From the NCBI RefSeq assembly GCF_003003055.1, contig NZ_PVTV01000015.1, positions 124,001 to 188,000 of the forward strand: a stretch of DNA of 64,000 nucleotides, in the 5' to 3' direction. The notes below the pieces were generated by a model that saw only the letters and a list, made by a program, of their open reading frames with translations, did no database searches and was not told where the DNA came from. Shown piece by piece: positions 9,087-25,079 of this stretch; positions within the stretch are counted from its first letter, which is position 1, and each line of letters starts with the position of its first letter. The translations under genes were made by a program, and so were the position numbers. This stretch comes from Jezberella montanilacus (lineage in GTDB: Bacteria > Pseudomonadota > Gammaproteobacteria > Burkholderiales > Burkholderiaceae_B).

Positions 9087-10166
9087 TTAATCAACAGTTA
9101 AGGCGCCGCGTCGGACTTGATCCCTTTCCATTGAGTCGAACAGCGCTTTAAAGTTACCTTCACCAAAGCCTTCATCTTTTTTGCGCTGAATAAATTCGAA
9201 GAACACCGGACCCAACAAGGTCTCGGAGAATATCTGCAACAGCAACCTGGGATCACCCTGTTCTGTTGAACCATCCAGCAAAATCCCGCGCGCCTGCAAG
9301 GCATCGACGGGTTCGCCATGACCAGGCAAACGCTCAGCCAGCATATCGTAATAGGTTTGCGAAGGTGCCGTCATCAGCGGGATTCCCGCCCGACGTAAGG
9401 CATCGACACTTTCAATCAGGTTGTCACAACGCAAGGCAATGTGTTGAATGCCTTCGCCATTAAATTTCATCAAAAACTCTTCGATCTGGCCGCCACCGCC
9501 TTTGCTTGATTCTTCGTTGAGCGGGATTCGGATCAGACCGTCGGGTGCGGTCATCGCTTTACTCGTCAACCCGGTGTACTCGCCCTTAATATCAAAATAG
9601 CGAATCTCTCTGAAGTTAAAGATTTTTTCATAGAAACCAGCCCAGAAATTCATACGACCGCGATAAACATTGTGCGTCAGATGATCGATCACCTTGAATC
9701 CATGCCCTGGCGGATGTCTGTCGACCTCCGGCAAAAACTCAAAATCGATATCGTAAATACTTTTGCCGTCTTCAAAACGATCTATTAAATACAGCGGCGC
9801 GCCGCCTATCCCTTTAATTGCCGGAAGCCTGAGCTCCATGGGACCTGTTGGAATTTCAATTGGTTGAGCCCCCAGCTCAAGCGCCCTTGCGTAGGCTCGG
9901 TGAGAGTCCTTGACGCGAAACGCTAAGGCGCACGCAGAGCTACCGTGCTCTGCCGAAAAGTAACCAGCAATACTTTTGGGCTCACGGTTAACGATAAAAT
10001 TGATATCCCCCTGGCGATATAGCACGACATCTTTCGATCTGTGTTTAGCCACAAGTGAGAAGCCCATCAACTCGAAGATCCGTTCAAGTTTGTCTGCTTC
10101 AGGGGATGCGAACTCAACGAATTCGAAGCCACACAGGCCCATTGGATTATCGAATAGATCAGTCAT
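9087..10166 (-). CDS. hpd: 4-hydroxyphenylpyruvate dioxygenase
   Basis: A 359-residue two-domain VOC enzyme that converts 4-hydroxyphenylpyruvate to homogentisate. The C-terminal catalytic domain holds the expected Fe(II) ligands: His162 ([10 protein letters not shown]), His242 ([11 protein letters not shown]) and Glu324 (FFEFIQRKK). The tail ([22 protein letters not shown]) is the classical family ending. Two ATG codons stand in tandem; the second (10166) is chosen because AAAGGA lies at a better distance from it. It follows fahA by about a dozen bases and is the last gene of the minus-strand operon. A plain HPPD is most likely; hydroxymandelate synthase is unlikely given the fahA neighbour. 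Confidence 0.92.
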
Positions 10167-10181
10167 CATTATCCTTTCGTA

Positions 10182-11501
10182 TTAAATAACTCTTGCGGGT
10201 AAGACTTGCGCGGTGCACTGCCCAAACCCAATCCGAGCAAACCCAGCTCGCTGACACCAACCACGCAGCGTGACAGCGTCACCGTCTTCGAGAAACGTTC
10301 GGGTTTCACCGTTTGGCAAGATCACTGGTTTCTTACCCCCTTCCGTTATTTCAATGAGCGCACCCGCTTCGTCCGCAGTTGGTCCGGATAGGGTGCCGGT
10401 TCCGAACAAATCACCACCTTGCAGGTTGCAGCCGTTAACGGTGTGCTGCGTCACGAGTTGGGCTGCTGTCCAGTAGGCGTGGCGGTAATTAGACTGCGCT
10501 AATTTTGACGGGGCAATGCTTGCGTCTCGCATTGCTTGCGTCTGAATCAGAATGTCCAGTTCTATGTCGAGCGCACCCTGAGAATTGTTGTCTTCCGAGC
10601 TCAAGTAAGGCAGTGGCTGAGGGTCAGTCACTGGACGGGGTAGCGCTGCCCGATACGGCGCCAAAGCTTCTAGCGTCACTACCCACGGTGACACAGAAGT
10701 ACAAAAACTTTTCGCAAGAAAGGGGCCAAGCGGTTGCGACTCCCAAACCTGAATATCGCGCGCTGACCAATCATTGAGCAAGCAAATTCCGAAAATATGA
10801 TTTTCAGCGTCTTCGAGGGAGATAGCTTGCCCCATCGCATTACCGGTTCCGATGAAAATGCCCAATTCAAGTTCGAGATCGAGACGTTTACAAACCGATA
10901 AACTCGGACTCGTTGACCCTGGGGGAGAGGTCTGGCCCACTGGTCGATGAAAATTTTTGCCCGACACCACCACACTGGAAGCACGGCCGTGATAGCCGAT
11001 GGGCAACCACTTGTAATTGGGCAGAAGCGGATTGTCTGGCCGAAACAGCTTTCCAACATTCGTCGCGTGTTCAATCGAAGTATAAAAATCGGTGTAATCC
11101 CCGATCTTGGCTGCAACGGCGTATTCAACCCTTGCTTGTGGGATCAAACAGGCTGCGATGGGCTGCTGATTTGCATAGCTTTGGCGGAGCATTTCTGAAA
11201 GTGCGAGTCTAAGCGCGGACCAAGCCGGCCGTCCCAGCCCCATTAGGGAATTCAAACCCTCGTGGCTCGCGGCAAGTAGCGCCTCTTGCACGATACCTGA
11301 GCATAAATGAGCTTGGGCTAAGGCAGCGAGATCAACGATCTGATCACCAATCGCCACACCAAGCCTGAAGGATTCGTTGCTCTGCAACCGGCGGAAGTTT
11401 GCAAAAGGAAGATTTTGAATCGGGAAGTCAGTGCCAGGGATATTCGCGCTCTCAACCCAACTCTTTAAATCGGCGTGGTGCGTTTCATTGATCGTGTTCA
11501 T
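10182..11501 (-). CDS. fahA: Fumarylacetoacetase
   Basis: A 439-residue fumarylacetoacetate hydrolase, the last enzyme of tyrosine/homogentisate breakdown, giving fumarate and acetoacetate. The family block DYTDFYTSIEHATNVGK contains the metal-binding Asp and catalytic His. It is followed by LPIGYHGRASSVVVSG, an ELELGIFIG segment with metal-binding acids, LLNDWSARDIQ, and GDLFGTGTLSGP. The length is as expected for the full two-domain form. The ATG lies three bases after the stop of the upstream VOC gene, with AGGA inside that gene's end. Co-transcribed with hpd; homogentisate dioxygenase and maleylacetoacetate isomerase genes are not in the window. Confidence 0.94.
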   Translation of the reverse strand: MNTINETHHADLKSWVESANIPGTDFPIQNLPFANFRRLQSNESFRLGVAIGDQIVDLAALAQAHLCSGIVQEALLAASHEGLNSLMGLGRPAWSALRLALSEMLRQSYANQQPIAACLIPQARVEYAVAAKIGDYTDFYTSIEHATNVGKLFRPDNPLLPNYKWLPIGYHGRASSVVVSGKNFHRPVGQTSPPGSTSPSLSVCKRLDLELELGIFIGTGNAMGQAISLEDAENHIFGICLLNDWSARDIQVWESQPLGPFLAKSFCTSVSPWVVTLEALAPYRAALPRPVTDPQPLPYLSSEDNNSQGALDIELDILIQTQAMRDASIAPSKLAQSNYRHAYWTAAQLVTQHTVNGCNLQGGDLFGTGTLSGPTADEAGALIEITEGGKKPVILPNGETRTFLEDGDAVTLRGWCQRAGFARIGFGQCTAQVLPARVI

Positions 11502-11504
11502 GCG

Positions 11505-12041
11505 TCAAGTCCTGTATGTACCGTCGTGCATCCAGGAGGCGTGCACGGGCGCCTTTTTTGTTTCTGCCCACTCTTCGAGCATGGTCCATTTAACGTCGTC
11601 GAGTTTTTGGTACATCGCACTTGTACCGCAGTCAAAAGCAAGTTCTAGTCGGTGTCCGCTGGGATCAAAAAAATAAATACTTTTAAAAATCGTGTGATCA
11701 ACTGGACCCAGAACTTTGACACCATCACCTTCCAGTCTCGCCTTAGCCTCAATCAGCGCTTCAAAGGAATCCACCTTAAAAGCGAGGTGCTGTACCCATT
11801 CAGGGGTGTTGCGATCGCGATCCATCGGCTTTTGGGTTGGCAATTCGAAAAACGCCAAGATGTTGCCGCCCCCAGCATCGAGAAATACATGCATATAAGG
11901 ATCAGGGGCTTTTGTCGACGGCACCTGATTTTCAGCAATCGCCAGAACAAACTTCATGTGAAGATGCCGTTCGTACCACTCAACGGTCTGCTTTGCATCG
12001 TTACAGCGGTAAGCAACGTGATGAACACCTTGAGTCAACAT
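11505..12041 (-). CDS. VOC family protein (glyoxalase-like dioxygenase fold)
   Basis: A 178-residue vicinal-oxygen-chelate protein. It begins GVHHVAYRCNDAKQTVEWYERHL, with an N-terminal metal-type His, has VQHLAFKVDSFEA in the middle (second His) and FDPSGHRLELAF near 130 (third ligand Glu), so a metal site is plausible. The start at 12041 is supported by GGGAGG just upstream; a start 15 bases earlier is less likely. As first gene of the operon with fahA and hpd it may act on an aromatic-pathway intermediate, possibly as a ring-cleaving or isomerising enzyme, but its reaction cannot be read from sequence. Confidence 0.82.
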   Translation of the reverse strand: MLTQGVHHVAYRCNDAKQTVEWYERHLHMKFVLAIAENQVPSTKAPDPYMHVFLDAGGGNILAFFELPTQKPMDRDRNTPEWVQHLAFKVDSFEALIEAKARLEGDGVKVLGPVDHTIFKSIYFFDPSGHRLELAFDCGTSAMYQKLDDVKWTMLEEWAETKKAPVHASWMHDGTYRT

Positions 12042-12190
12042 ATTGATGCCTCCCATCTATTCGTCTTCGGGTTTGAGTCCCTGTTCAATCTGCTAAGTTA
12101 CACCAAGTGCATTGCCTAGCGTTGCTTTTATTATTTAGAAATCTCTGATCGGCTAAATTTAGAACCTTGGTTGCACCTGCAACTAATCAT

Positions 12191-13060
12191 TTATTTTGAT
12201 AGGTGCGCGCCAATAGCAGCAGCCGCTGTTCGGGTTTCAACACCAAGCTTATCGAAGATATGTTCAAGATGTTTATTCACTGTGCGTGGGCTCATGCCGA
12301 GAATATCGGCAATATCCCGATTAGTTTTGCCCTTAGCCAGCCAAGATAGCACTTCGCTTTCCCGTCGAGTCAGGGATGCATTTTGCAAACGAGTCATATC
12401 CCCTGAGGGTAAATCGTGTTTGGCTAACAACAGCATGCTCTCGCCCAGACCAACTAAACCAAGATTGCGAAACGATAAATCGGGATAACCAGGCAAACTG
12501 AGTTGCTCTGCGTTTGACGCGAGTATTGACAGCCACTGTTCTGATGTGAAATCACGGGTCAACCATTGTTTTGCTTGCGGAGATTGCCAGGCAACCCGGC
12601 CTTGAGAATCAATCACAACGACCCCAAAACCAGCAATATCCACCGCGTCGCGGGCAAGCCTCACCTCTTTTGCGTTACGGATATGCGTTTGTAGTCTTGC
12701 CAAAGCTTCTTCGACTTTAATGGGTTTGACGACGTAATCGACTCCACCACTTTCAAACGCTTGCACAATATGCTGAGTCTCAGACAGTCCGGTCATGAAG
12801 ATGACAGGCAAATGAGCTAGTACCGGATTGGCTTTAATCTGAACACAAGTTTCAAACCCGGACAGACCCGGCATGACGGCATCAAGTAAGACTGCATCGA
12901 CTGATACCAATTTAAGCCGGTCTAAAGCGGTTGCACCATCAAGCGCGACGACGACGCTGTAACCGGCTTGCTCAAGTGCTTCATACAGCATACCAAGACT
13001 GCGTGGATCATCATCAACAATCAAGACGACTGAGCGCGACGTTACATTACTCTCATTCAT
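12191..13060 (-). CDS. LuxR/NarL-type response regulator with central PAS-like region
   Basis: A 289-residue DNA-binding response regulator. Residues 10-130 form a receiver: acidic pocket Asp16-18, phospho-acceptor Asp60 (VLLDAVMPG), Thr90 and Lys112 (VVKPIK). Residues about 140-215 resemble a small PAS-like module (GFGVVVIDSQGRVAWQS). Residues 228-289 are a LuxR-type helix-turn-helix (LTRRESEVLSWLAKGKTNRDIA, then RTVNKHLEHIFDKLGV). Its ATG overlaps the stop of the kinase gene by eight bases (ATGAATGA), so the two are translationally coupled and surely partners. Divergent location from urtA suggests it controls the amide/urea operon. Pattern and context are strong; the target is inference. 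Confidence 0.93.
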   Translation of the reverse strand: MNESNVTSRSVVLIVDDDPRSLGMLYEALEQAGYSVVVALDGATALDRLKLVSVDAVLLDAVMPGLSGFETCVQIKANPVLAHLPVIFMTGLSETQHIVQAFESGGVDYVVKPIKVEEALARLQTHIRNAKEVRLARDAVDIAGFGVVVIDSQGRVAWQSPQAKQWLTRDFTSEQWLSILASNAEQLSLPGYPDLSFRNLGLVGLGESMLLLAKHDLPSGDMTRLQNASLTRRESEVLSWLAKGKTNRDIADILGMSPRTVNKHLEHIFDKLGVETRTAAAAIGAHLSK

Positions 13061-16000
13061 GGCTATCAGCCCTGGTCAATTCAATTAACTGCTGAAACTC
13101 AAATTGAGTCACTTTTGTTCTGAGTGTCTCGCAAAGCGCCCGGTGACTAGGATATTGTGTAGCAAATTGTTCTAACTCATCTAATAGCCCTTGCACATGG
13201 CCCATATGCAGTAACGAGGAGAGACGTCCGCGCAACGCTTGCGGGATATGTTCGGTGCCAAGTCCAGCGTCTGCCTGATCATGTGCGACAGGCGGGGCTA
13301 TCCCGCTAAGACCGGCGCTGATCCATTTAATGTCGAGAAATTGTCCCAACACACTTAAGAGCTCAGATTCGAGAACAGGTTTCCCAACGAAGGCTTGACA
13401 TTGAGCGCTTGCTATTTTGGCCGGTTGGTTATCAAACAAATTTGCGGAAACCAGGATGATCGGCAAATCCAGATAGCCCGCATCTCGGATTGCCCGAGCC
13501 GTTTCCCAGCCGTCCATTTCATCCATGGAGATATCCAACAGGACAGCGTTGGGCACCTCTACTTCCAGGCTGTCAAGGCACTCGCTACCACTGGCCGCTT
13601 CATTGACAGTAAAGCCTAACGGACGTAGCAAAGCCGCCAACATTTGTCTCTGATCAGGCTGATCGTCAACCGCCAGCAGCGTTAAGCGGCTACCTTCATA
13701 GCCAGTGACATGGCCAACCGTTTGCACGAGTGATCCGGGATCATCGACTTTCGGCAGGTAGAGTCGAACACAAAAGGAGCTGCCGAAATCTTGCTTGCTC
13801 TCCATGGATAACTCACCACCCATCATGGCAGTGAGTAAACCCGTAATCGTCAGGCCCAAACCAGTACCGGGCTCACCCCTTCTTCTAGCAGCTCCACCGC
13901 GCTCAAAAGGCAAAAAGATACGTTGCTGATCTTGAGGAGCCACACCCACGCCTGTATCAATGACATAAAACATCAATACTTCAGCATGTGCATCCACGCG
14001 CAGGGTCACGCTGCCTGTATCAGTGAATTTGATTGCGTTACCCAACAAATTGATCAGCACTTGCGTCAAGCGCTTGGCATCGCCTTTTACCCATTCGGGC
14101 AAAACGCCTATCACTTCATAATTAAACAGCAGACCTCTGGCAGTAGCCTGCGGCTCAATCATGTGAACAATTTCATCCAAAAGCGATCTCAGTGGCATAG
14201 GCGCTGTCTCCAGCCTAAGTCGGCCCGATTCGATATGGGCCAGATCCAGAAGATCGTCGACCAGAGAAGCCATATGCAACCCGCTGCGCTGGATAGTTTT
14301 AAGCGCATCCACCTGCTTACGGTCTTTGAGTTCGGTTTTCAAGAGAATCTGCAAATAGCCAAGGATGCTGTTGAGCGGGGTACGCAACTCATGCGTCATA
14401 CCCGCGACGTATCTGGTTTTAGCTCGATTGGCGTTCTCTGCTGCTTCTTTGGCCACTTGCAAAGCGGCATCAATTCTTCTTAAGGCTTCAACCTCTCGTT
14501 GCAGCAAACGACTTTGCGCGTTTGACTCATCTTGAGCTAACTGACGACTTTCGTTAATCAAAACGACCCACCAACTGCATACCGCAATAACCAAAATCAT
14601 CATCGCGAATATTTTCGTAAACGCGTCGATATGGTCGGCGTAAGGAATCGTGTCAGTACCGCCCTCTTGAGTCAGCGCAATGGCCATCACCGTCGCCAAG
14701 ACAAACGCAAGTGACAAGAAGACAATTAAAAACCTGCCAGCCCTCGATTTAAAGCGCTCTGAAATGTAAGCTGGCAAGACGAGTGTCATCCAACCCGCAA
14801 ACTGTTCGTCGATGCGAGAGTTTTCTTTGCACATATCGTGACAACGGGAGTCCAGCGTGCAACAGAGTGAACAAATGGGGGCGCCGTAAGCCGGACAATG
14901 TGTCATGTCCGGCGCTTCAAAGTGATTTTCGCAGACACTGCACTGCAGGATCTTTCCCGCGGTTGAAATATCAGAAGCCCGCCTTGCCAGATACCATTTG
15001 CCCTTGGTGAGCCAGGCAATCACAGGTGACAGTAAAAACGAGGCACATAAGGCGATAAACGGAGAGAAGGCACGGGCCACATCGCCGAAGAGGCCACCGT
15101 ACGCAGCCAACGCCACCCCAGCAGAAATAATCGTTGCCCCGAGTCCGACCGGATTGATATCGTATAAATGCGCTCGCTTGAATTCGATCCCTTTGGGCGA
15201 TAATCCGAGCGGCTTATTCACAACAAGATCAGCGACAATCGCGCCAATCCAGGCGATAGCAATATTGCTGTACAAGCCAAGCACTTGTTCAAGCGCTTTA
15301 AACACGCCCAAGGTCATCAGCAAAGTAGCGATCGTTACGTTAAATACTAGCCAAACCACCCTGCCTGGATGGCTGTGCGTGACTCGGGCAAAAAAGTTTG
15401 ACCAAGCCAGCGAGCCTGCGTAGGCGTTGGTGACGTTAATCTTTACTTGAGACAAAATGACAAAGAGAGCGGTGATTGCAACGACCCAGGCAGGATCTCT
15501 AAAGACATAGGCAAAGCCGGCCAAGTACATGCGAGTGGGTTCGCTCGCATATTCGGTTGATAGTTGCTGTTGCAAAACAAGAAACGCCAAAAACCCGCCA
15601 CCCAACATCTTTGCTGCACCGGGAACAATCCAGCCTGGTCCTGCCAGTGTTACGGCTGCCCACCACCGAAATCGATTTTCTTTGGTTTTTTCGGGCAAAA
15701 ATCTGAGGTAATCGACCTGTTCGCCGATCTGCACGACTAAAGAACAGGCAACGGTAAAAGCAGAGCCGAACATCAACCAACCAAATTCGCTTGTTCCAGA
15801 TAGCCGCCCACTCAGCCCCGTAAATTCGATAAATGCCCCGGGATCTTTAATCCCGATCGCCACATAGGGACAGACAAGCAACACCAGCCATAGCAGTTGA
15901 GTCCAAAGTTGTAAGCGAGAAATCAAAGTGATGCCTCGCAACACCAGTGGGATAATCACCAAAGCACTTAATACGTAACAAAGCGATATCGGCCAATCAA

Positions 16001-16436
16001 GATAAAGCTTGAGTGCGAGCGCCATAATCGCCGCCTCTAGCGCAAAGAAAATAAAAGTAAATGCCGCGTATATCAAAGACGTGATGGTGGAACCAACATA
16101 GCCAAAACCCGCACCTCGCGTCAGTAAATCGATATCTACGCCGAAACGTGCCGCAAAGTAGCTAATTGGAAAACCTGTAAAAAACGCAACCAGCGCCACG
16201 GCAAAAATAGCCCACATGGCGTTTGAAAAACCATAATTAAGCACCATCACGGCGCCAATCGCCTCGAGGGCGAGAAATGAAACGCCTCCCAGCGCTGTAT
16301 TGGCAACCTTCCATTCGGACCATTTCCGAAAAGAAACCGGTGTGTAGCGCAAAGCAAAATCCTCTAGGGACTCGTCTGCCACCCAACTGTTGTAGTCACG
16401 TCTGATGCGAATGATTTTTTGATTCGCGCTAGTCAT
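13053..16436 (-). CDS. NCS1-permease / histidine kinase / receiver fusion protein
   Basis: A 1127-residue hybrid sensor. Residues about 35-485 form a polytopic domain of the NCS1 nucleobase:cation symporter family (cytosine permease type; GGVSFLALEAIGAVMVLNYG, later VNVTNAYAG-like NVTNAYAGSLAWSNFF and IGAIVADLVV). Residues 499-536 hold eight cysteines at 499, 502, 514, 522, 525, 526, 532 and 536, a likely metal-binding cluster. Two more membrane segments lie near 567-625 and a coiled coil near 640-672. The kinase follows: His682 in MTHELRTPLNSILGY, N-box Asn800, DTGVGV 827-832 and GTGLGL 857-862. A receiver is at 919-1035 (Asp924-925, phospho-acceptor Asp968, Lys1019). The last 80 residues have no clear HPt histidine motif. 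Coupled to the LuxR regulator; likely senses a small amide or urea-like solute. Confidence 0.93.
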   Translation of the reverse strand: MTSANQKIIRIRRDYNSWVADESLEDFALRYTPVSFRKWSEWKVANTALGGVSFLALEAIGAVMVLNYGFSNAMWAIFAVALVAFFTGFPISYFAARFGVDIDLLTRGAGFGYVGSTITSLIYAAFTFIFFALEAAIMALALKLYLDWPISLCYVLSALVIIPLVLRGITLISRLQLWTQLLWLVLLVCPYVAIGIKDPGAFIEFTGLSGRLSGTSEFGWLMFGSAFTVACSLVVQIGEQVDYLRFLPEKTKENRFRWWAAVTLAGPGWIVPGAAKMLGGGFLAFLVLQQQLSTEYASEPTRMYLAGFAYVFRDPAWVVAITALFVILSQVKINVTNAYAGSLAWSNFFARVTHSHPGRVVWLVFNVTIATLLMTLGVFKALEQVLGLYSNIAIAWIGAIVADLVVNKPLGLSPKGIEFKRAHLYDINPVGLGATIISAGVALAAYGGLFGDVARAFSPFIALCASFLLSPVIAWLTKGKWYLARRASDISTAGKILQCSVCENHFEAPDMTHCPAYGAPICSLCCTLDSRCHDMCKENSRIDEQFAGWMTLVLPAYISERFKSRAGRFLIVFLSLAFVLATVMAIALTQEGGTDTIPYADHIDAFTKIFAMMILVIAVCSWWVVLINESRQLAQDESNAQSRLLQREVEALRRIDAALQVAKEAAENANRAKTRYVAGMTHELRTPLNSILGYLQILLKTELKDRKQVDALKTIQRSGLHMASLVDDLLDLAHIESGRLRLETAPMPLRSLLDEIVHMIEPQATARGLLFNYEVIGVLPEWVKGDAKRLTQVLINLLGNAIKFTDTGSVTLRVDAHAEVLMFYVIDTGVGVAPQDQQRIFLPFERGGAARRRGEPGTGLGLTITGLLTAMMGGELSMESKQDFGSSFCVRLYLPKVDDPGSLVQTVGHVTGYEGSRLTLLAVDDQPDQRQMLAALLRPLGFTVNEAASGSECLDSLEVEVPNAVLLDISMDEMDGWETARAIRDAGYLDLPIILVSANLFDNQPAKIASAQCQAFVGKPVLESELLSVLGQFLDIKWISAGLSGIAPPVAHDQADAGLGTEHIPQALRGRLSSLLHMGHVQGLLDELEQFATQYPSHRALCETLRTKVTQFEFQQLIELTRADSHE

Positions 16437-16504: not shown

Positions 16505-16522
16505 ATACGTCAATTGACGTAT
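16505..16522. promoter_or_regulatory. 18-base perfect palindrome, candidate operator
   Basis: ATACGTCAATTGACGTAT reads identically on both strands. It lies about 75 bases before the urtA start and about 70 bases from the kinase start, in the only divergent promoter region of the amide locus. Size and symmetry suit a dimeric LuxR/NarL-type regulator, and the partner gene encodes one. That the regulator binds here is inference; no second intergenic copy was recognised in the window. Confidence 0.6.
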
Positions 16523-16595: not shown

Positions 16596-17861
16596 ATGAA
16601 GAAGCATCCTTCAGATTTGTCTGATTTGCCTATCAGCAGTGATCGTCGTCAGGTATTACAAGGTATTGTTGGTTTGGCTTTGGCCGCAGCAACAATGCGT
16701 GCTGGCGCACAAAAATTGCCTACCTCGCAAGTAAACACCACAAAATTAGCAGTCACCGACACAGAAGTCATCGTCGGTCAGTTGCATTCAGCAACCGGCA
16801 CGATGGCGATTTCTGAGACTGGCTCGATTCAAGCAGAACAGCTTGCCATCGACCAGATCAACGCCATGGGTGGCGTGTTGGGTCGTCAGATCAAAGTGAT
16901 CAAAGAAGACGGCGCATCAGATTGGCCAACCTTCGCTGAAAAAGCCAAGAAATTACTGGTCAATGACCACGTTGCCTCAGTATTCGGTTGCTGGACTTCA
17001 GCATCACGTAAGGCTGTATTGCCAATTTTTGAAAAAGAAAATGGCATGCTTTATTACCCAACCTTCTATGAAGGCCTGGAGCAGAGCAAAAACGTTATTT
17101 ATACCGGTCAAGAAGCGACTCAGCAGATTCTCTGGGGCCTCGATTGGGCGTCAAAAGATTTGGGTACCAAGACATACTTCCTGGTTGGTTCAGACTACAT
17201 CTGGCCACGTACATCAATGAAGATTGCGCGCAAGCACATTGAGGGACATCTGAACCAGAAAGTCGTGGGCGAAGAGTATTACCCATTGGGCAATACCAAC
17301 TTCAACTCGTTGATTAACAAGATCAAAGCTGCAAAACCTGATCTGATCTACGCAGCTGTGGTCGGTGGCAGTAACGTTGCCTTCTACAAACAGCTAAAAG
17401 CTGCTGGCATCACGTCAGCCAAGCAGAAACTGTTGACCATCTCGGTAACCGAAGACGAATTGCTCGGAATTGGTGGTGAGAACACAGAAGGCTTCTACTC
17501 ATGCATGAAGTACTTCCAATCTCTGGATAACGAAAACAACAAGAAATTTGTTGCGGCGTTTAAAGAGAAATACGGTGCCAAGTCGGTGATCGGTGACGTG
17601 ACCCAAGCTGGCTACCTCGGCCCATGGCTCTGGAAATACACCTGCGAAAAAGCAGGCAGCTTCGATGTGGACAAGATTGCAGCCGCTTCGACTGGCATCG
17701 AGTTCAAAGGGGCTCCAGAAGGCTATGTGCGCATTGATGACAACCATCATTTGTTCAGTAAAGCACGCATCGGTCAGATGCTGGCAGACGGACAATTCAA
17801 GGTGGTTGCAGAGTCGCCCGAGTTGATCAAACCTGATCCATTCCCTAAGGGTTATCAGTAA
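16596..17861 (+). CDS. urtA: Urea/short-chain amide ABC transporter substrate-binding protein
   Basis: A 421-residue periplasmic binding protein of the UrtA/FmdD family. A twin-arginine leader (Arg17-Arg18 in DRRQVLQGIVG) ends near AGAQ. The mature protein starts the type I periplasmic-binding fold (VIVGQLHSATGTMAISETGS, then GGVLGRQIKVIKEDGASDWPTFAEKAKKL). Other family blocks are FGCWTSASRKAVLPIFE and NGMLYYPTFYEGLEQS. AGGAG lies seven bases before the ATG. First gene of the urtABCDE-fmd-ami cluster and divergent from the NCS1-kinase gene. Next to formamidase and amidase genes, the ligand may be short amides as well as urea, as for FmdD of Methylophilus. Confidence 0.95.
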   Translation: MKKHPSDLSDLPISSDRRQVLQGIVGLALAAATMRAGAQKLPTSQVNTTKLAVTDTEVIVGQLHSATGTMAISETGSIQAEQLAIDQINAMGGVLGRQIKVIKEDGASDWPTFAEKAKKLLVNDHVASVFGCWTSASRKAVLPIFEKENGMLYYPTFYEGLEQSKNVIYTGQEATQQILWGLDWASKDLGTKTYFLVGSDYIWPRTSMKIARKHIEGHLNQKVVGEEYYPLGNTNFNSLINKIKAAKPDLIYAAVVGGSNVAFYKQLKAAGITSAKQKLLTISVTEDELLGIGGENTEGFYSCMKYFQSLDNENNKKFVAAFKEKYGAKSVIGDVTQAGYLGPWLWKYTCEKAGSFDVDKIAAASTGIEFKGAPEGYVRIDDNHHLFSKARIGQMLADGQFKVVAESPELIKPDPFPKGYQ

Positions 17862-17871
17862 GCATGAAGTG

Positions 17872-17901
17872 CAGGGATTGGCTGACGATTGCCAATCCCT
17901 G
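17872..17901 (+). terminator. Strong intercistronic hairpin between urtA and urtB
   Basis: CAGGGATTGGC (17872-17882) is followed by an eight-base loop and its exact complement GCCAATCCCTG (17891-17901), an 11-pair perfect stem. No T-run follows, so it is probably not a full terminator. A hairpin here is typical of ABC operons, where it protects the 3' end of the binding-protein message or partly terminates to raise urtA above the membrane subunits. Confidence 0.7.
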
Positions 17902-17942
17902 TTCAGTTACAGCTAGTTAGTTATGCGATACAAGGAAGCACC

Positions 17943-18857
17943 ATGGAACTCTCTGAAATTCTAAATATTGCCGTGATGCAGGGCTTCGCAGGTTTGAGCC
18001 TGTTTGCTGTTCTTCTCCTAATGGGGTTGGGACTTGCAATCATCTTTGGTCAGATGGGTGTGATCAACATGGCTCACGGTGAATTCATGGCTATTGGTGC
18101 CTACACCGTATTTCTGGGTTCGACTTTGACTGAGAAGTATGCGCCAGACTTAGCTCCGGTGTATTTCCCCTTCGCGATTTGTGCCGCTTTTGTTTTCGCC
18201 TTTGTCGGCGGTTGGCTTGCCGAGTGGGCCTTAATCCGGCATCTCTATAAACGACCTTTGGATACTTTGTTGGCGACGTGGGGACTTAGTCTCGCCTTGC
18301 AGCAAACGTTTCGCACCTTTATTAGCCCTAAAGAAGTGAGTCCTACCCTGCCCGACTGGTTAATGGGTTCGTGGGCACCTCAAGAAGGTTTGGATATTCC
18401 GATTAACGGTATGTTCGTGATGATGCTGACCTTATTGGTGACAGGCGGCGTCATGCTGGCCCTGTACCGAAGCCGCTGGGGTTTGCGAGTCCGCGCCACG
18501 GTGAGCAATCGTCCCATGGCAAATGCGGTAGGTATCAACACTAAAAAAACTGACCGGCTTACTTTTGCAATTGGTTGTGGCATTGCGGGCATTGCTGGCG
18601 CTGCGTTCACGACCATTGGTTCAACAGGCCCTACTTCTGGATCCCTTTATATCGTCGACTCCTTTTTAGTGGTTACCTTTGGCGGGGCAGCCAGTTTGTT
18701 AGGCACTGCCGCCTCCGCCTTCGGTATTGCACAGATTCAATCCATTACAGAATTCTTCATGACGGGTTCGATGGCGAAAGTGTTCACGTTGTCCTTCGTT
18801 GTAATCGTGTTGATGTTCCGCCCCCAGGGTTTGTTCGCGTCGAAGATTCGGCGTTAA
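17943..18857 (+). CDS. urtB: Urea/amide ABC transporter permease
   Basis: A 304-residue LivH-type inner-membrane permease. The start at 17943 is supported by AAGGAA upstream and by the family N-terminus MELSEILNIAVMQGFAGLSLFAV; an upstream in-frame start would add 18 polar residues. Conserved segments are GLGLAIIFGQMGVINMAHGEFMAIGAYT, the cytoplasmic loop RSRWGLRVRATVSNRPMANAVGINT (the EAA-like contact with the ATPases) and VVTFGGAASLLGT. Lies between urtA and urtC. Confidence 0.94.
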   Translation: MELSEILNIAVMQGFAGLSLFAVLLLMGLGLAIIFGQMGVINMAHGEFMAIGAYTVFLGSTLTEKYAPDLAPVYFPFAICAAFVFAFVGGWLAEWALIRHLYKRPLDTLLATWGLSLALQQTFRTFISPKEVSPTLPDWLMGSWAPQEGLDIPINGMFVMMLTLLVTGGVMLALYRSRWGLRVRATVSNRPMANAVGINTKKTDRLTFAIGCGIAGIAGAAFTTIGSTGPTSGSLYIVDSFLVVTFGGAASLLGTAASAFGIAQIQSITEFFMTGSMAKVFTLSFVVIVLMFRPQGLFASKIRR

Positions 18858-18884: not shown

Positions 18885-20066
18885 ATGACTTCCATTAAAA
18901 CTTTCCTGAAACAACCCGGTTTGACTGGGTTCATCATTCTTGCGGGCATTTTGCTCATTGTTTTTCCAGCGTGCTTCGACATCTTCCGTCTCAATTTAAT
19001 CGGCAAGTACTTAACCTATGCTTTTGTCGCCATTGGCTTAGTCATGCTGTGGGGCTGGGGGGGCGTGCTCAGCTTGGGACAAGGTGTATTTTTTGGTTTG
19101 GGTGGCTATTGCATGGCTATGTTCCTGAAGCTCGAAGCTTCAGATCCCATTACGACCAAAATCCAGTCGACTCCCGGAATCCCGGATTTCATGGACTGGA
19201 ACCAACTTACAGCCTTACCCATCTGGTGGGAGCCGTTCCATAGTCTGACTTTCACTTTCATCGCAGTGATCGGAGTGCCCGTCATTCTGGCCTTCATTGT
19301 CAGCTATGCAATGTTCAAACGGAGAGTCGGTGGCGTTTACTTTGCGATCATTACTCAGGCTGTGTCCCTGATTTTGATGACACTGATTATCGGTCTGCAA
19401 GGCTATACAGGCGGCGTGAACGGCATGACAGATCTGAAGACAATGGCAGGGTGGGACACGCGCACTGACTCAGCAAAAATAATCCTCTACTACGCCTGCG
19501 CTGGCACGCTGTTGCTGTGTGTCCTGATTGGTACCTGGATGCAACGCAGCAAATTTGGCACCTTACTGCTCGCCATGAAAGATAAAGAGGATCGCGTCCG
19601 CTTCTCGGGCTATGACGTCTCTATGTTCAAAGTCGCGGTGTTCTGTCTAGCTGCGGGCGTGTCTGGTATTGGCGGCGCCTTCTTTGCGCTACAAGTTGGT
19701 TTCATGTCGCCCTCTTTTGTTGGCATTGTGCCTTCAATCGAGCTGGTCATTTTGTGCGCGGTCGGTGGTCGTATGAGCTTAGTCGGCGCGGTCTACGGTT
19801 CACTCCTTGTTAATGCAGCCAAGACCTTATTTTCTGAAAGTTTTCCGGACTTATGGCTGTTCTTAATGGCAGCCCTTTTTATTGGTGTGACCATGGCTTT
19901 TCCACTGGGCTTGGCGGGCCTCTGGGATGAAAAAATCAAACCCTGGTGGAAGAAGCGGAACGAAGATCGCTTGGCACTTCGAAACCGTCTGAAAGAACTG
20001 GAGAATGAACCAGTTGACCCGTCAGCACACACCACGAGCACCGGTATTGAAAGGAGCCCAGTATGA
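18885..20066 (+). CDS. urtC: Urea/amide ABC transporter permease
   Basis: A 393-residue LivM-type permease. Conserved segments include LTYAFVAIGLVMLWGWGGVLSLGQGVFFGLGGY, the loop RSKFGTLLLAMKDKEDRVRFSGYDV for ATPase contact, and the C-terminal GLAGLWDEKIKPWWKKR, which is characteristic of UrtC. AAAGGAG precedes the ATG. The end overlaps urtD by four bases (ATGA). With UrtB it forms the heterodimeric membrane channel. Confidence 0.94.
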   Translation: MTSIKTFLKQPGLTGFIILAGILLIVFPACFDIFRLNLIGKYLTYAFVAIGLVMLWGWGGVLSLGQGVFFGLGGYCMAMFLKLEASDPITTKIQSTPGIPDFMDWNQLTALPIWWEPFHSLTFTFIAVIGVPVILAFIVSYAMFKRRVGGVYFAIITQAVSLILMTLIIGLQGYTGGVNGMTDLKTMAGWDTRTDSAKIILYYACAGTLLLCVLIGTWMQRSKFGTLLLAMKDKEDRVRFSGYDVSMFKVAVFCLAAGVSGIGGAFFALQVGFMSPSFVGIVPSIELVILCAVGGRMSLVGAVYGSLLVNAAKTLFSESFPDLWLFLMAALFIGVTMAFPLGLAGLWDEKIKPWWKKRNEDRLALRNRLKELENEPVDPSAHTTSTGIERSPV

Positions 20067-20809
20067 GCAGCAACACTGACTTTGTCCTGGCTGTAGAAGA
20101 CCTAACGGTTTCGTTTGACGGCTTTAAGGCAATCGACAATCTTAATCTTTACGTCGATCACAACGAACTGCGAGTCATCATCGGACCAAACGGTGCTGGA
20201 AAAACGACTTTGCTCGACATGATCTGTGGCAAAACCAAAGCAACGTCTGGCAGCATCAAGTTTCACAATGAGGAAATGACCGCGCTGCCGGAGTTCACCC
20301 GTGTTCGCAAGGGTATCGGTAGAAAATTTCAAACGCCTTCGATTTATGAAAACTTATCGGTTTTTCAAAATCTCGAAGTGTCCTTCCCGAAAGGCCGTTC
20401 TGTCTTGGGCGCCGTATTCTTCAAATGCACCGCTGAGGTTAAAGACCGGGTGCAAGCTATTGCTGAGGAGATTGGTCTGGCAGACACCCTCAATACGGAA
20501 GCTGGCCTGCTCTCTCACGGGCAGAAGCAATGGCTCGAAGTCGGCATGCTGTTAATGCAGGATCCTGAGCTATTGATGCTTGACGAACCGATCGCTGGCA
20601 TGAGCGTGCGAGAGCGCGAAATCACCGCTGAACTGCTGAAGAAGATTTCTAACAATCGTTCGGTCATTGTCATTGAACACGACATGGAGTTTGTAAAGAA
20701 AATCGCGCAGAAAGTAACCGTGATGCATCAGGGAAAAATCCTGGCTGAAGGCTCGATGGACGACGTTCAGAACAACCCGCAAGTTATTGAAGTCTATCTG
20801 GGTCACTAG
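20063..20809 (+). CDS. urtD: Urea/amide ABC transporter ATP-binding protein
   Basis: A 248-residue LivG-type ATPase. Walker A is GPNGAGKT near residues 43-50, the signature appears as LSHGQKQWLEVGMLL (the UrtD-type variant of LSGGQ), Walker B is ELLMLDEPIAGMS, and the switch His follows in VIVIEHDMEFV. The start overlaps the urtC stop. SHGQKQ and the short LivG-like C-terminus support UrtD over a general LivG. Confidence 0.95.
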   Translation: MSSNTDFVLAVEDLTVSFDGFKAIDNLNLYVDHNELRVIIGPNGAGKTTLLDMICGKTKATSGSIKFHNEEMTALPEFTRVRKGIGRKFQTPSIYENLSVFQNLEVSFPKGRSVLGAVFFKCTAEVKDRVQAIAEEIGLADTLNTEAGLLSHGQKQWLEVGMLLMQDPELLMLDEPIAGMSVREREITAELLKKISNNRSVIVIEHDMEFVKKIAQKVTVMHQGKILAEGSMDDVQNNPQVIEVYLGH

Positions 20810-20818
20810 GAGAGCAAC

Positions 20819-21508
20819 ATGTTGAGTGTGAAAGATTTATTTGTTGCCTACGGCCAAAGTGAGGCCTTGCACGGTATTTCTCTTGAAGGCGACAAGGAAG
20901 AAACCATCGCCATCATGGGGCGAAATGGCATGGGTAAAACCACCTTATTCAAAAGTCTGATGGGGCTGCTACCCGCAAAAAGCGGCACGATTACGGTCAA
21001 TGGCAATGACATCACAAAAGACGAAAGCTTCCAACGGGTAGCCAAGGGCATCGCCTACGTCCCACAAGGGCGGATGATCTTCCCTACCCTGACCGTTGAA
21101 GAAAACATTCAGACTGGCCTGGAGAACGCCAAAGTAAAAACAATTCCTGACGAAATCTACGCATTGTTTCCTGTGCTTTGGGATATGCGTCGGCGCAAAG
21201 GTGGCAATCTTTCTGGTGGTCAACAACAGCAGCTTGCCATTGCAAGGGCGTTAGTCACGAATCCGAAGGTGTTGCTGCTGGACGAGCCCACTGAAGGTAT
21301 CCAACCATCAATTATCAAGGATATCGCCAAAGCCTTGAACGAAATCCGCAAAATGCGCGGCATCACCATCATCGTGTCTGAACAGGTGTTGAGCTTCGCA
21401 TTGGATGTCGCTGACCGCCTGTTTGTGATCGAAGGTGGCCGGCTGGTCTACGAAACATCGCGCAACGATACCGATGTTGATCGTATCAAGCAGTACCTTT
21501 CCGTTTAA
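20819..21508 (+). CDS. urtE: Urea/amide ABC transporter ATP-binding protein
   Basis: A 229-residue LivF-type ATPase. Walker A is GRNGMGKT, the signature is NLSGGQQQQLAIARALV, and Walker B is VLLLDEPTEGIQPSII; the GIQPSII stretch is typical of UrtE. It begins nine bases after urtD with GGAGAG upstream. Completes the UrtABCDE importer. The formamidase gene fmdA follows after 18 bases, so import and hydrolysis are co-transcribed. Confidence 0.95.
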   Translation: MLSVKDLFVAYGQSEALHGISLEGDKEETIAIMGRNGMGKTTLFKSLMGLLPAKSGTITVNGNDITKDESFQRVAKGIAYVPQGRMIFPTLTVEENIQTGLENAKVKTIPDEIYALFPVLWDMRRRKGGNLSGGQQQQLAIARALVTNPKVLLLDEPTEGIQPSIIKDIAKALNEIRKMRGITIIVSEQVLSFALDVADRLFVIEGGRLVYETSRNDTDVDRIKQYLSV

Positions 21509-21526: not shown

Positions 21527-22756
21527 ATGCCCGAAACCCTAATCTCCGTTGATCTAAAACAATCACCCTACGACAACCCAAAGATTCACAATCGCTGGCA
21601 CCCTGACATCCCGATGGCTTGTTGGGTCAAACCTGGCGATGACTTCGTCCTCGAGACGTTTGACTGGACCGGCGGTTTCATTAAAAACAATGACAGCGCC
21701 GATGATGTTCGTGATATCGATTTGTCAACTGTCCACTTCTTATCTGGCCCAGTCGGTGTCAAAGGTGCTGAGCCAGGTGACCTGCTGGTCGTGGACCTGC
21801 TCGATATCGGTGCCAAAGACGACAGCCTCTGGGGCTTTAACGGCTTTTTCAGCAAAAAGAACGGTGGTGGTTTTCTGACTGATCACTTCCCCTTAGCCCA
21901 GAAATCAATTTGGGATTTTCACGGCATGTTTACCAGCAGCCGTCACATCCCCAACGTCAAATTCGCTGGCCTCATCCACCCTGGTCTGATTGGTTGCTTG
22001 CCAGATCAGAAAATGCTCAATATGTGGAACGAGCGAGAAGTAGAGTTTATCGCGACTCAACCCGATCGTGTGCCACCCTTGGCTAATCCTCCTTTCGCTA
22101 AGACCACCCATGCTGGTGCCGCAACGGGCGACGTCAAGACAAAGATTGAGAATGAAGGTGCTCGCACGGTGCCCCCACGCGAACACGGCGGCAACTGTGA
22201 CATCAAAGACTTGTCACGCGGCTCAAAGATTTATTTCCCCGTCTATGTTGATGGAGCTGGTCTGTCAGTCGGTGACTTGCACTTTAGCCAAGGCGATGGC
22301 GAAATTACGTTCTGCGGTGCGATTGAAATGGCTGGCTGGGTTCATATGAAAGTCGAACTCATCAAAGGCGGTATGGCCAAGTATGGCATCAAGAATCCAA
22401 TTTTCAAGCCAAGCCCCATCACCCCTCAGTACAACGATTATCTGATCTTCGAAGGTATCTCGGTTGACGAGCAGGGCAAACAACATTATCTGGACGTCAA
22501 TGTTGCGTATCGCCAAGCTTGTTTGAATGCGATCGAATACATGACGAAGTTCGGCTACTCACGTGCACAAGCCTACTCGATTCTTGGTACTGCACCCGTG
22601 CAGGGCCATATCAGTGGTGTGGTTGACATACCCAATGCGTGCGCAACCTTGTGGCTGCCTACGGGAATCTTTGACTTCGACATTAATCCGACCGCTGCTG
22701 GCCCACAAAAACTGGTGACGCCAGGCTTCGATATGCCGCTGTCGCAAGATCTTTAA
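21527..22756 (+). CDS. fmdA: Formamidase (acetamidase/formamidase family)
   Basis: A 409-residue cytoplasmic amidohydrolase of the FmdA/AmdA family, hydrolysing formamide (and weakly other short amides) to ammonia and the acid. The full-length family pattern is visible: HNRWHPDIP near the N-terminus, DVRDIDLSTVHFLSGPVGVKGAEPGDLLVVD, PPREHGGNCDIKDLSRGSKIYFPVYV and SQGDGEITFCGAIEMAG. The GGNCD and QGDGE blocks carry the probable catalytic and metal-contact residues. Length matches the Methylophilus enzyme. Context after urtABCDE and before fmdB makes the assignment strong. Unrelated in fold to the AmiE amidase encoded downstream. Confidence 0.95.
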   Translation: MPETLISVDLKQSPYDNPKIHNRWHPDIPMACWVKPGDDFVLETFDWTGGFIKNNDSADDVRDIDLSTVHFLSGPVGVKGAEPGDLLVVDLLDIGAKDDSLWGFNGFFSKKNGGGFLTDHFPLAQKSIWDFHGMFTSSRHIPNVKFAGLIHPGLIGCLPDQKMLNMWNEREVEFIATQPDRVPPLANPPFAKTTHAGAATGDVKTKIENEGARTVPPREHGGNCDIKDLSRGSKIYFPVYVDGAGLSVGDLHFSQGDGEITFCGAIEMAGWVHMKVELIKGGMAKYGIKNPIFKPSPITPQYNDYLIFEGISVDEQGKQHYLDVNVAYRQACLNAIEYMTKFGYSRAQAYSILGTAPVQGHISGVVDIPNACATLWLPTGIFDFDINPTAAGPQKLVTPGFDMPLSQDL

Positions 22757-22792: not shown

Positions 22793-23146
22793 ATGCCTAC
22801 TTATGACTATTCATGCAAAACCTGCGGTAGTTTCGACTCTATCCGTCCGATGAGTCTTCGCAACGAGATGGCAGAGTGTCCTGAGTGCGGGGGTCTCTCT
22901 GAACGAATTTTCGCCTTTGGTTCAAACCTTGCCCGGTTGGACAGTGACACGCGGAAGGCTATTGAGGGTAATGAACGCGCTGCCAATTCGCCGATGATGT
23001 CACGTGACTATGACACCGGCTATAGCCGTATGCGGCACCCTTCTGGCTGCGGTTGCTGTAAGACTGGCAAGAAGGCCACCACACAGACTTATGCCAATGG
23101 CAATAAATCCTTCCTGGGCAAACGTCCCTGGATGATCAGCCATTAA
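22793..23146 (+). CDS. fmdB: FmdB family zinc-ribbon protein
   Basis: A 117-residue protein with the FmdB zinc ribbon at its N-terminus: MPTYDYSCKTCG, then ECPECGG, four cysteines in two CxxC pairs (residues 8, 11, 29, 32 approximately). The C-terminus has another Cys-rich patch, HPSGCGCCKTGKK. In Methylophilus fmdB lies next to fmdA and was proposed to regulate it; biochemical function remains uncertain. AGGGAGA precedes the ATG. Confidence 0.92.
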   Translation: MPTYDYSCKTCGSFDSIRPMSLRNEMAECPECGGLSERIFAFGSNLARLDSDTRKAIEGNERAANSPMMSRDYDTGYSRMRHPSGCGCCKTGKKATTQTYANGNKSFLGKRPWMISH

Positions 23147-23222: not shown

Positions 23223-24260
23223 ATGAGACACGGGGATATCTCCAGCAGTAAAGATTGCGTCGGCGTCGCTGTCGTCAACTATAAAATGCCACGTCTGCAC
23301 ACGAAAGCCGAAGTGCTGGATAACGCCCGTAAGATCGGCGAGATGCTGGTGGGTATGAAGCAAGGCTTGCCAGGCATGGATCTGGTTATATTCCCCGAAT
23401 ACAGCACGCATGGGATTATGTATGACGCGAAAGAAATGTATGAAACAGCGTCGACCATCCCAGGTGACGAGACCGAAATTTTCGCAGCAGCGTGCCGCAA
23501 AGCAAATGTCTGGGGCGTATTTTCGTTAACGGGTGAGCGCCATGAGGATCATCCTAACAAAGCGCCTTACAACACGTTGATTTTGATGAACAACGAAGGT
23601 GAGATTGTTCAAAAATACCGCAAAATCATGCCTTGGACTCCGATCGAAGGTTGGTATCCGGGCGATTGCACTTATGTATCAGATGGCCCCAAAGGCATGA
23701 AGATCAGCTTGATCATTTGTGACGATGGCAATTACCCTGAAATCTGGCGCGATTGTGCCATGCGTGGTGCTGAGCTCATCGTGCGTTGCCAGGGCTATAT
23801 GTACCCCGCAAAAGAGCAACAAGTGATGGTTGCCAAATGCATGGCCTGGATGAATAACACGTACGTTGCAGTGGCGAACGCAGCTGGCTTTGACGGTGTG
23901 TATTCATATTTCGGCCATTCGGCAATCGTTGGATTCGATGGGCGTACCCTAGGCGAATGTGGCGAAGAGGAAATGGGTATTAACTACGCTGAATTGTCAC
24001 TGAGCTTGATTCGAGACTTCCGTAAAAATGGCCAGTCTCAAAATCATCTCTTCAAACTCGTGCACCGTGGCTACACAGGCAAAATCAATTCGGGCGAAGA
24101 TGTCAATGGTGTTGCAGCCTGTCCTTATGAGTTTTATGGAAAATGGATCAACGACCCAGAGGGAACTCGAAAAATGGTTGAGTCGTTCACGAGGTCAACT
24201 GTTGGGACTGAGGAGTGCCCGATTCCAGGCATCCCTCACGAACCTGCTTCGCACCGATAA
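23223..24260 (+). CDS. amiE: Aliphatic amidase
   Basis: A 345-residue nitrilase-superfamily amidase very close to Pseudomonas AmiE, starting [21 protein letters not shown]. The catalytic residues fall at the classical numbers: Glu59 (FPEYS), Lys134 (KYRKIMPW) and Cys166 ([12 protein letters not shown]). Trp138, linked to chain-length selectivity in AmiE, is kept. The enzyme hydrolyses short aliphatic amides such as acetamide and propionamide to acid and ammonia and can transfer acyl groups to hydroxylamine. The distinct N-terminus and residues around 139-160 fit AmiE and not the AmiF formamidase. AGGGAG precedes the ATG. Followed after 15 bases by a MoxR-type ATPase. Confidence 0.96.
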
Positions 24261-24275
24261 TCAGGGTCAGAGATC

Positions 24276-25079
24276 ATGGCGCCTGATCTGACAGCCTATC
24301 GGCTTATACAGGCGCCTTATTACTGTCCGACTGGACGCGAGATTGACTTATACGAACAAGCCTATGCGCGCAGGCTTCCAATCTTGCTAAAGGGTCCAAC
24401 GGGATCCGGAAAAACTCGCTTTGTTGAGTACATGGCTTACAAGCTGGGACTGCCACTGATTACGCTAGCTTGTAACGAGGATATGACCGCGTCTGATCTG
24501 GTCGGTCGCTTTTTGTTGGATGACACCGGAACCGTCTGGCACGACGGGCCGTTAACGCAGGCCGTTCGATACGGCGCAATTTGCTATCTGGATGAAATAG
24601 TCGAAGCACGCCAGGATACGACCGTTGTCATTCACCCCCTTACGGATTCACGTCGAATTTTGCCTCTGGATAAAAAGGGGGAGCTCGTCCAGGCTCATCC
24701 CGACTTTCAGTTGGTTGTGTCCTACAACCCTGGCTACCAAAGTCATGCAAAAGACATGAAACCATCAACCAGGCAAAGGTTTGTCTCGCTCGACTTCAAT
24801 TATCCCGGTGCTGCTATCGAAGCGCAGATTGTGGTCAACGAAGCAGGCACTTCAACAGCTTTGGCCGATAAGCTTGTCGATATTGCCCATCGCAGTCGCG
24901 CATTGAAGAGCCACGGTTTGGCTGAAGGCGCCTCGACACGTATGCTGATCTACGCCGCCATGTTGATCGAAGACGGTGTTGCACCAACTGATGCCTGTGA
25001 GATGGCACTGGTTCAACCGCTCACCGATGATCCAGACATGACTTCCGCCTTGTTAGCGGTCGTGTCCGCACATTTCTGA
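24276..25079 (+). CDS. MoxR/CbbQ/NorQ-type AAA+ ATPase
   Basis: A 267-residue AAA+ chaperone-type ATPase of the CbbQ/NirQ/NorQ clade. Walker A is GPTGSGKT at 40-47 and Walker B ends in Asp106-Glu107 (ICYLDEIVEAR). The clade marker ACNEDMTASDLVGRFLLD follows the first strand, sensor 1 is SYNPGYQS, and the arginine-finger stretch STRQRFVSLDF is present. Its stop overlaps the ATG of the VWA gene by one base. In known pairs (CbbQ/CbbO, NorQ/NorD) the ATPase works with a VWA partner to activate or metallate a specific enzyme. Here the client is probably FmdA or AmiE; that is inference from position. Confidence 0.92.
   Translation: MAPDLTAYRLIQAPYYCPTGREIDLYEQAYARRLPILLKGPTGSGKTRFVEYMAYKLGLPLITLACNEDMTASDLVGRFLLDDTGTVWHDGPLTQAVRYGAICYLDEIVEARQDTTVVIHPLTDSRRILPLDKKGELVQAHPDFQLVVSYNPGYQSHAKDMKPSTRQRFVSLDFNYPGAAIEAQIVVNEAGTSTALADKLVDIAHRSRALKSHGLAEGASTRMLIYAAMLIEDGVAPTDACEMALVQPLTDDPDMTSALLAVVSAHF

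Follow-up and report, generated by a model that had tools for sequence, protein, structure and literature searches.

What does a histidine kinase perceive when an entire transporter domain precedes its catalytic core, and which genes does it control? The question is raised by a gene of Jezberella montanilacus found at positions 13053-16436, on the reverse strand, of a 64,000-nucleotide stretch of contig NZ_PVTV01000015.1 (hereafter the window, meaning the whole stretch). The gene starts with ATG and encodes a protein of 1127 amino acids which Pfam, fold and profile searches identify as an NCS1-type transporter domain fused to a hybrid histidine kinase. In the reading preferred here, to which a probability of roughly 0.78 is given, this protein would be a transporter-derived (transceptor-type) sensor kinase for urea or short aliphatic amides, activating a divergent operon through a partner response regulator. 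Such ligands are proposed because relatives of the kinase usually adjoin genes for the uptake and breakdown of urea and small amides. The architecture of the chain, its relationship to NCS1 proteins, the conserved cysteines, the gene linkage, the split of clades by neighbourhood and a conserved palindrome were all computed here.

Hydropathy scanning of the protein detects 14 membrane segments, of which 12 fall within residues 48-474 and two lie at residues 570-627. The 12-segment NCS1-type domain (residues 1-488, 14973-16436), delimited by hydropathy, an AlphaFold2 model, Foldseek and hhalign, is followed by a module of eight cysteines (residues 499-536, 14829-14942) and by two extra transmembrane helices (modelled as residues 565-639; 14520-14744), the second of which is continuous to residue 639, towards HisKA. 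Pfam then recognizes a HisKA domain (residues 672-738, 14223-14423) with phospho-acceptor His682, a HATPase_c domain (residues 785-894, 13755-14084) and a receiver (Response_reg, residues 921-1029, 13350-13676) with Asp968. The protein is thus a hybrid histidine kinase, with HisKA, HATPase_c and receiver in a single chain and both the His and the Asp present. An Hpt domain was not found, either as a Pfam match in the chain or as a conserved His within residues 1040-1127. An initial annotation, made from the sequence alone, had claimed an NCS1-type domain, two further membrane segments and a kinase with its receiver in one chain, and all of them are indeed present. The domain search that it had proposed recovered HisKA, HATPase_c and the receiver by Pfam but not the NCS1 family, no Pfam match being obtained anywhere in residues 1-650.

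The same annotation had named a sequencing artefact joining two genes as a way in which it could fail. This is excluded because open frames of about 1120-1250 codons with the same N-terminal membrane domain recur in many genomes and keep His682 and Asp968, both invariant in 92/92 rows of the full-length kinase alignment. The search for homologues used the membrane part as query and would therefore miss kinases devoid of it. Matches were obtained in 12/61 genomes, including that of J. montanilacus itself, in 42/299 genomes sampled from the phylum (three of them, G098, G233 and G252, represented by distant matches in short frames only) and in 536/72,556 plasmid records. A scan of named genomes yielded at least 585 relatives, the best 80 of which (loci L048-L127, hereafter the named loci) come mostly from Betaproteobacteria and Pseudomonas, plus one cyanobacterial contig. 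On that contig, labelled Phormidium, the relative (L106, 9986-12952) has 988 amino acids, with the kinase present and the receiver absent.

Does the membrane domain belong to NCS1 or to another LeuT-fold family? PF02133, the Pfam model for NCS1, matches neither the window protein nor any of 23 family members at E<=1, and a search of the J. montanilacus genome finds nothing either. Among permeases of the same branch that carry no kinase, three escape the model, as does one distant relative, whereas the model recognizes a Klebsiella pneumoniae permease that shares 45% identity with the window domain (37.7 bits for a cut-off of 23.5). Fold and profile evidence was therefore used. The AlphaFold2 model of residues 1-640, built on a 52-row alignment, has a mean pLDDT of 79 and a pTM of 0.81, and CodB or Mhp1 entries occupy the top five places among its Foldseek matches in the PDB (E 8e-10 to 6e-7, TM <=0.77 on the target), ahead of sialic-acid, APC, Nramp and SGLT-type transporters. 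When profiles are compared by hhalign, the 23 kinase members align to 19 NCS1 proteins (one ambiguous row being left out) with a probability of 99.5% and an E-value of 2.3e-23 over 416 columns, rising to 99.7-99.8% when kinase-free relatives are included, and the 20 column-shuffled NCS1 profiles used as control give at most 0.4%. Against a profile of 16 SSF proteins, the same 23 members reach 0.5% (0.5-2.3% across runs), SSF being a fair but distant control since NCS1 and SSF profiles themselves align at 44%. An SSF/SLC5 origin of the domain is thus ruled out by hhalign, and the top Foldseek matches are CodB and Mhp1. Pfam alone would be a weak test for SSF, because an Acinetobacter baumannii kinase with a PAS domain and 12 membrane segments, presumably of the SLC5 type, likewise lacks an SSF match. 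In a BLAST search of a small local set, a PF02133-positive protein (PF02133 E 2.7e-19) is reached directly with E 1.7e-6. Given the fold search, the profile comparison and the PF02133-positive Klebsiella permease, the membrane domain is a divergent NCS1 member beyond the reach of current Pfam.

Within the NCS1 domain, E134 in helix 3 and K332, N334, N337 and Y339 in helix 8 are invariant (92/92 rows). The Thr-Thr pair of CodB helix 8 aligns to K332 and I333, so that the Ser/Thr pair of the sodium site is absent and a Lys occupies position 332 in 92/92 kinases. This position presumably coincides with a Ser of the Mhp1 sodium site. Since Na+ coupling is not universal in NCS1, the missing pair does not exclude membership; the Lys at the sodium-site position suggests that solute binding by the kinase NCS1 domain is sodium-independent.

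The eight cysteines claimed at residues 499-536 are found exactly there (499, 502, 514, 522, 525, 526, 532 and 536), and their conservation holds across the family. All eight occur in 23/23 rows of the first family alignment, and the pattern is kept in 98/100 sequences, that is, in 98/99 kinase-type sequences, some of which end at contig edges. The two exceptions are a kinase-free permease and the kinase of locus L092, which lacks the last two cysteines. Accordingly, in the full-length alignment (n=92), C499 to C526 are present in 92/92 rows and C532 and C536 in 91/92. The predicted model of the module has a pLDDT of 72 and a pTM of 0.53. Its fold search returned no match at E<=0.001; the best 50 matches, from E 0.35 upwards, are mostly zinc domains of the PHD, ZZ, RING, LIM, FYVE and E6 types, and assignment to a known zinc-finger family was discarded as neither sequence-family nor fold matches are significant. 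From cysteine conservation and these weak fold matches, the module is probably a zinc-binding linker in the form of a binuclear zinc finger.

The origin of this module is illuminated by kinase-free permeases of the same branch, which are 43-55% identical to the window domain. Among those examined, the majority belong to clusters of urease, formamidase or amidase genes: those of three Acinetobacter plasmids and of Klebsiella are beside urease, those of Moraxella and Tsukamurella beside formamidase, and that of Arthrobacter beside an aliphatic amidase and an acetate-CoA ligase, while in Methylovirgula a permease occurs together with the kinase, the regulator, a formamidase and an amidase. In A. 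baumannii, a kinase-free permease faces the kinase gene. The Klebsiella urease cluster holding the permease also contains an insertion sequence. Its permease (L193, 6956-8563), located after ureG in the K. pneumoniae cluster and annotated "cytosine permease", belongs to the NCS1 branch of the kinase and is a candidate urea permease. The Methylovirgula permease (L196, 11941-13590) lies downstream of the kinase-regulator pair and has the full eight-cysteine tail. In the tails of nine kinase-free permeases, four, five or eight cysteines are counted, or one to two in two actinobacterial cases. The cysteine tail thus came with the permease, to which it belongs, and grew nearly invariant in the kinases.

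Which genes surround the kinase? Its partner, a response regulator with a receiver and a LuxR-type (GerE) DNA-binding domain by Pfam, is encoded just downstream on the same strand (12191-13060), the two genes overlapping by 8 bases. On the far side of the kinase gene, urtA begins after a gap of 159 bases, and the divergent genes urtABCDE, fmdA and amiE claimed by the initial annotation are indeed on the opposite strand. They comprise urtA (16596-17861), encoding a urea/amide ABC substrate-binding protein above the cut-off of TIGR03407, urtB (17889-18857; PF02653, 61% identity to the annotated Klebsiella UrtB), urtC (18885-20066, 65% to its Klebsiella counterpart), urtD (20063-20809, 65%) and urtE (20819-21508, 56%). 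The run continues with the formamidase gene fmdA (21527-22756; NF045496, 762 bits for a cut-off of 500), an fmdB-type zinc-ribbon gene (22793-23146; PF09723), the aliphatic amidase gene amiE (23223-24260; NF009802, 718 bits for a cut-off of 427) and, adjoining it, a gene for a CbbQ/NirQ/NorQ-type AAA protein (24276-25079; PF07728, PF08406). Downstream of the regulator, positions 9087-12056 hold a glyoxalase-fold gene, fumarylacetoacetase and 4-hydroxyphenylpyruvate dioxygenase; these belong to tyrosine degradation and have no obvious connection with the sensor.

This neighbourhood was surveyed by tblastn (E 1e-15) with window, Klebsiella and Acinetobacter gene products as queries against the loci. 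A same-strand regulator lies downstream of the kinase in 69/71 named loci whose downstream flank is 4.5 kb or longer, and a divergent urtA adjoins it in 49/78 with at least 1 kb upstream. Where the upstream flank reaches 7 kb or more (64 named loci), 37 loci have fmdA, 24 amiE, 18 urease and 52 urtA or urtB anywhere; at least one urt, fmd, ami or urease gene is found in 61, so that the linkage to urt, fmd and ami genes, put forward as a test of the initial annotation, proves conserved. Fourteen further loci were picked from the matches in the 61 and the 299 genomes, and 13/13 of those with enough flank carry at least one marker gene. Linkage by chance is estimated by the authors at about 1-2%, assuming one or two such clusters per genome of several Mb. 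As for the ligand, for which urea, formamide or a nucleobase-like amide had been envisaged, gene context supports urea and amides, and nothing points to a nucleobase.

A Klebsiella plasmid carries the kinase, the regulator, urtABCDE and the formamidase in the same divergent layout as the window. There (L046, NZ_CP022926.1, 5906-16300), formamidase, urtABCDE, sensor kinase and regulator form a 10.4 kb island, kept over at least 80% in 341/375 matching plasmid records, 352/375 of these records being from Klebsiella. The kinase gene of this island matches in 6/5426 E. coli genomes, in four of them over at least 80%, and predicted resistance genes lie near the island in one examined region.

The kinase phylogeny tracks gene neighbourhood. 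In a quick IQ-TREE reconstruction of 100 rows (98 kinase-type sequences and two permeases), where some branches are long and their placement unsure, the kinases near urease or near a distant (about 40%) urtABCDE group together in a single 30-row clade with an SH-aLRT of 100. This urease clade also holds one fmd locus (L126) and two loci without markers (L098, L123), and two urease-labelled rows (L140, L115) fall outside it. Over 89 labelled rows, the neighbourhood label changes four times, whereas 1000 shuffles give at least 16 changes (mean 23.4). Tandem kinase-regulator pairs, one amide-type and one urease-type by the tree, are found in L067 (10.0-21 kb) and L099 (4.4-16 kb). At residue 925, the second acidic position of the receiver, Asp is present in 61/92 kinases and Asn in 31/92, the Asn form being present in all 30 rows of the urease clade. 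In J. montanilacus itself, the urease alpha gene is on a separate contig (G000:C1:648744-649097), distant from the sensor.

How would the regulator find its target? The divergent promoter region of the window contains a perfect palindrome, ATACGTCAATTGACGTAT (16505-16522, without strand), which is proposed as the operator of the response regulator. Sixty-one divergent kinase-urtA regions of 60-700 bp with a urtA at least 60% identical (60 loci plus the window) were scored. The motif TACGT-N6-ACGTA occurs in 48/61, and ATACGTC-N4-GACGTAT with at least 11/14 matches in 54/61 versus 0.8% of 1220 shuffled regions; the remaining seven show ATACGC-N6-GCGTAT, or a near variant in L107. The palindrome is the only site with at least 11/14 matches in the window, and TACGT-N6-ACGTA is found at four places in the J. 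montanilacus genome, the window site included, compared with one for a control pattern. In A. baumannii, the region separating the permease and kinase genes contains a similar site (11/14; L044, position 11869). By its location and conservation, the palindrome is thus a candidate binding site of the response regulator. A shared operator was also looked for in the urease clade and none was found. For the amide-type divergent regions, a sigma-54 promoter was considered and discarded, a loose pattern on either strand occurring in just 6/61. Upstream of the kinase, a sigma-54-like promoter is present in 15/28 loci of the urease clade, in 2/68 others and in 0.4% of shuffled sequences.

Taken as a working model, the NCS1-type domain would bind urea or a short amide within the membrane. 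The resulting conformational change would be transmitted through the cysteine module, probably holding zinc, and the two extra helices to the signalling helix and the HisKA/HATPase core, which would phosphorylate both the receiver of the same chain and the LuxR-type regulator whose gene overlaps that of the kinase. As the chain has no Hpt domain, phosphate may pass directly to the partner regulator or by way of a separate Hpt protein. The regulator would then bind the palindrome at 16505-16522 and activate urtABCDE-fmdA-fmdB-amiE. A broader proposal, for which the odds are judged about even, is that this NCS1 branch constitutes an unrecognised class of urea and short-amide permeases in which the invariant K332 replaces the Ser/Thr pair, and that one of them was captured with its tail as a kinase input; the outcome would be a urea/amide sensor widespread among proteobacteria, since divided into amide- and urea-sensing clades, each with its own operon.

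Known systems offer several comparisons. In published descriptions, the A. baumannii kinase AmsS (ABUW_2427, A1S_1393) has 14 membrane domains and is a hybrid kinase without Hpt, a LuxR-type regulator being encoded downstream (PMC10112286, PMC11784087). The pair AmsSR (A1S_1393-1394, ABUW_2427-2426) is also named StkSR (PMC9146086), the two names being equated in PMC11011904, and is presented in the literature as controlling alternative metabolism or as affecting the response to colistin (PMC10112286, PMC9146086, PMC11784087). It resembles the window pair in its 14 membrane segments, its hybrid kinase without Hpt or other Pfam domains and its neighbouring LuxR regulator. The homologue on A. 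baumannii record NZ_CP104448.1 shares the eight cysteines and 51% identity over the membrane part with the window kinase, but its divergent neighbour is a kinase-free permease from the same branch, in place of urt-fmd-ami genes. It is the probable AmsS/StkS, a match made by elimination rather than by accession: among the 14 HisKA proteins of the record, the only other one comparable in size combines 12 segments with a PAS domain, and two other large ones have two and five segments in the pieces read. According to the initial annotation, an NCS1 sensor is not known to have been studied biochemically. The probable orthologue AmsSR/StkSR has in fact been studied by genetics, although no recognition of a transporter domain or of a ligand is found in the available parts of its published descriptions.

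CodB and Mhp1, the nearest solved folds to the membrane domain, lack a kinase. Ammonium-transporter domains have a fold that differs from NCS1. The ammonium sensor kinase of Kuenenia stuttgartiensis is alike in fusing the transporter domain of a nitrogen source to a histidine kinase, but uses an ammonium-transporter domain instead of NCS1 (PMC5764959). CbrA and CrbS are alike in principle, with a LeuT-fold transporter domain N-terminal to a histidine kinase, but theirs is an SLC5 domain followed by a STAC (and PAS) linker (PMC13022988), whereas the window kinase has NCS1, the cysteine module and two helices. STAC is not among the Pfam matches of the window protein, and whether Pfam holds a STAC model was left unchecked. 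CbrA and its relatives provide the mechanistic parallel for the window kinase (PMC13022988). In Ectopseudomonas, a hybrid kinase and a LuxR-type regulator lie beside a urtABCDE operon, the sensor part being left without comment in the available text (PMC13296017). The transporter-kinase fusions found in the literature search use SLC5 or ammonium-transporter domains; neither an NCS1-kinase fusion nor a urea-sensing kinase of the window type appears in the titles and abstract starts searched, subscription journals being mostly outside this search.

Several points weigh against urea or amide sensing followed by action at the palindrome. The linkage count is biased towards close relatives because the named loci are the best 80 of at least 585; three of the 64 (L098, L106 and L123) have no urt, fmd, ami or urease gene in the stretch covered, nor has the A. 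baumannii locus, and two Streptomyces plasmid permeases have no urea or amide neighbour in the stretch examined. The palindrome is absent from most urease-type loci, and two amide-type loci with longer regions outside the 61 (L072 and L139) have no good palindrome within 600 bp upstream of the kinase, which limits the operator claim to most amide-type loci. In A. baumannii, the amsSR promoter is induced by CCCP and mutants show broad metabolic effects (PMC10112286), a picture that does not readily suggest urea or amide sensing. Finally, UrtA could be the true ligand receptor.

This last point leads to the view that the kinase reads ligand-loaded UrtA or the flux through UrtBC, the NCS1 domain being only a docking scaffold. 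The position of a divergent urtA directly upstream of the kinase in those 49 named loci agrees with it, and loaded binding proteins can activate kinases (PMC11113362), but the urease-type loci and Methylovirgula have the kinase without a close urtA next to it, and the polar residues E134, N334 and N337 are invariant at the aligned central helices, which makes this view improbable. A second view places the primary sensor in the cysteine module, which would respond to zinc, redox or the energy state of the membrane while the transporter sets gain or location only. The near invariance of the cysteines in kinases and the CCCP response go along with it, and quinone sensing via a lone cysteine aligned with ArcB, unmapped on the window protein, was speculated for AmsS (PMC10112286). 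Yet the tail shared by the nine kinase-free permeases indicates that the module came with the permease, and gene linkage follows the nitrogen substrate; a primary sensor of this kind is accordingly considered quite unlikely. On a third view, the window protein might combine kinase function with active transport of urea or amides. Its NCS1 domain is retained in full, at the identity to kinase-free permeases given above, and both functions, transporter and kinase, are ascribed to CbrA (PMC7096432, PMC13022988), but an ABC transporter adjoins the sensor in most amide-type loci, so that uptake by the sensor itself is not required. Active transport is thus a tentative possibility, held at rather less than even odds.

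Under the preferred reading of a urea- or amide-responsive transceptor kinase, the consequences reach beyond J. montanilacus. The family is real, widespread and coherent, and brings a new input domain, NCS1, to transceptor kinases, in a strong urea/amide context; it would thereby extend the known repertoire of kinase input domains. It would also supply a ligand hypothesis for AmsSR/StkSR of A. baumannii, and it names a testable operator. Some permeases annotated as "cytosine" or "allantoin" carriers near urease or formamidase genes are perhaps mis-annotated urea or amide carriers, as suggested by the kinase-free members of the branch. Lastly, the sensor and its regulator are the likely control system for the urea/formamide island, which recurs across hundreds of plasmid records from Klebsiella.

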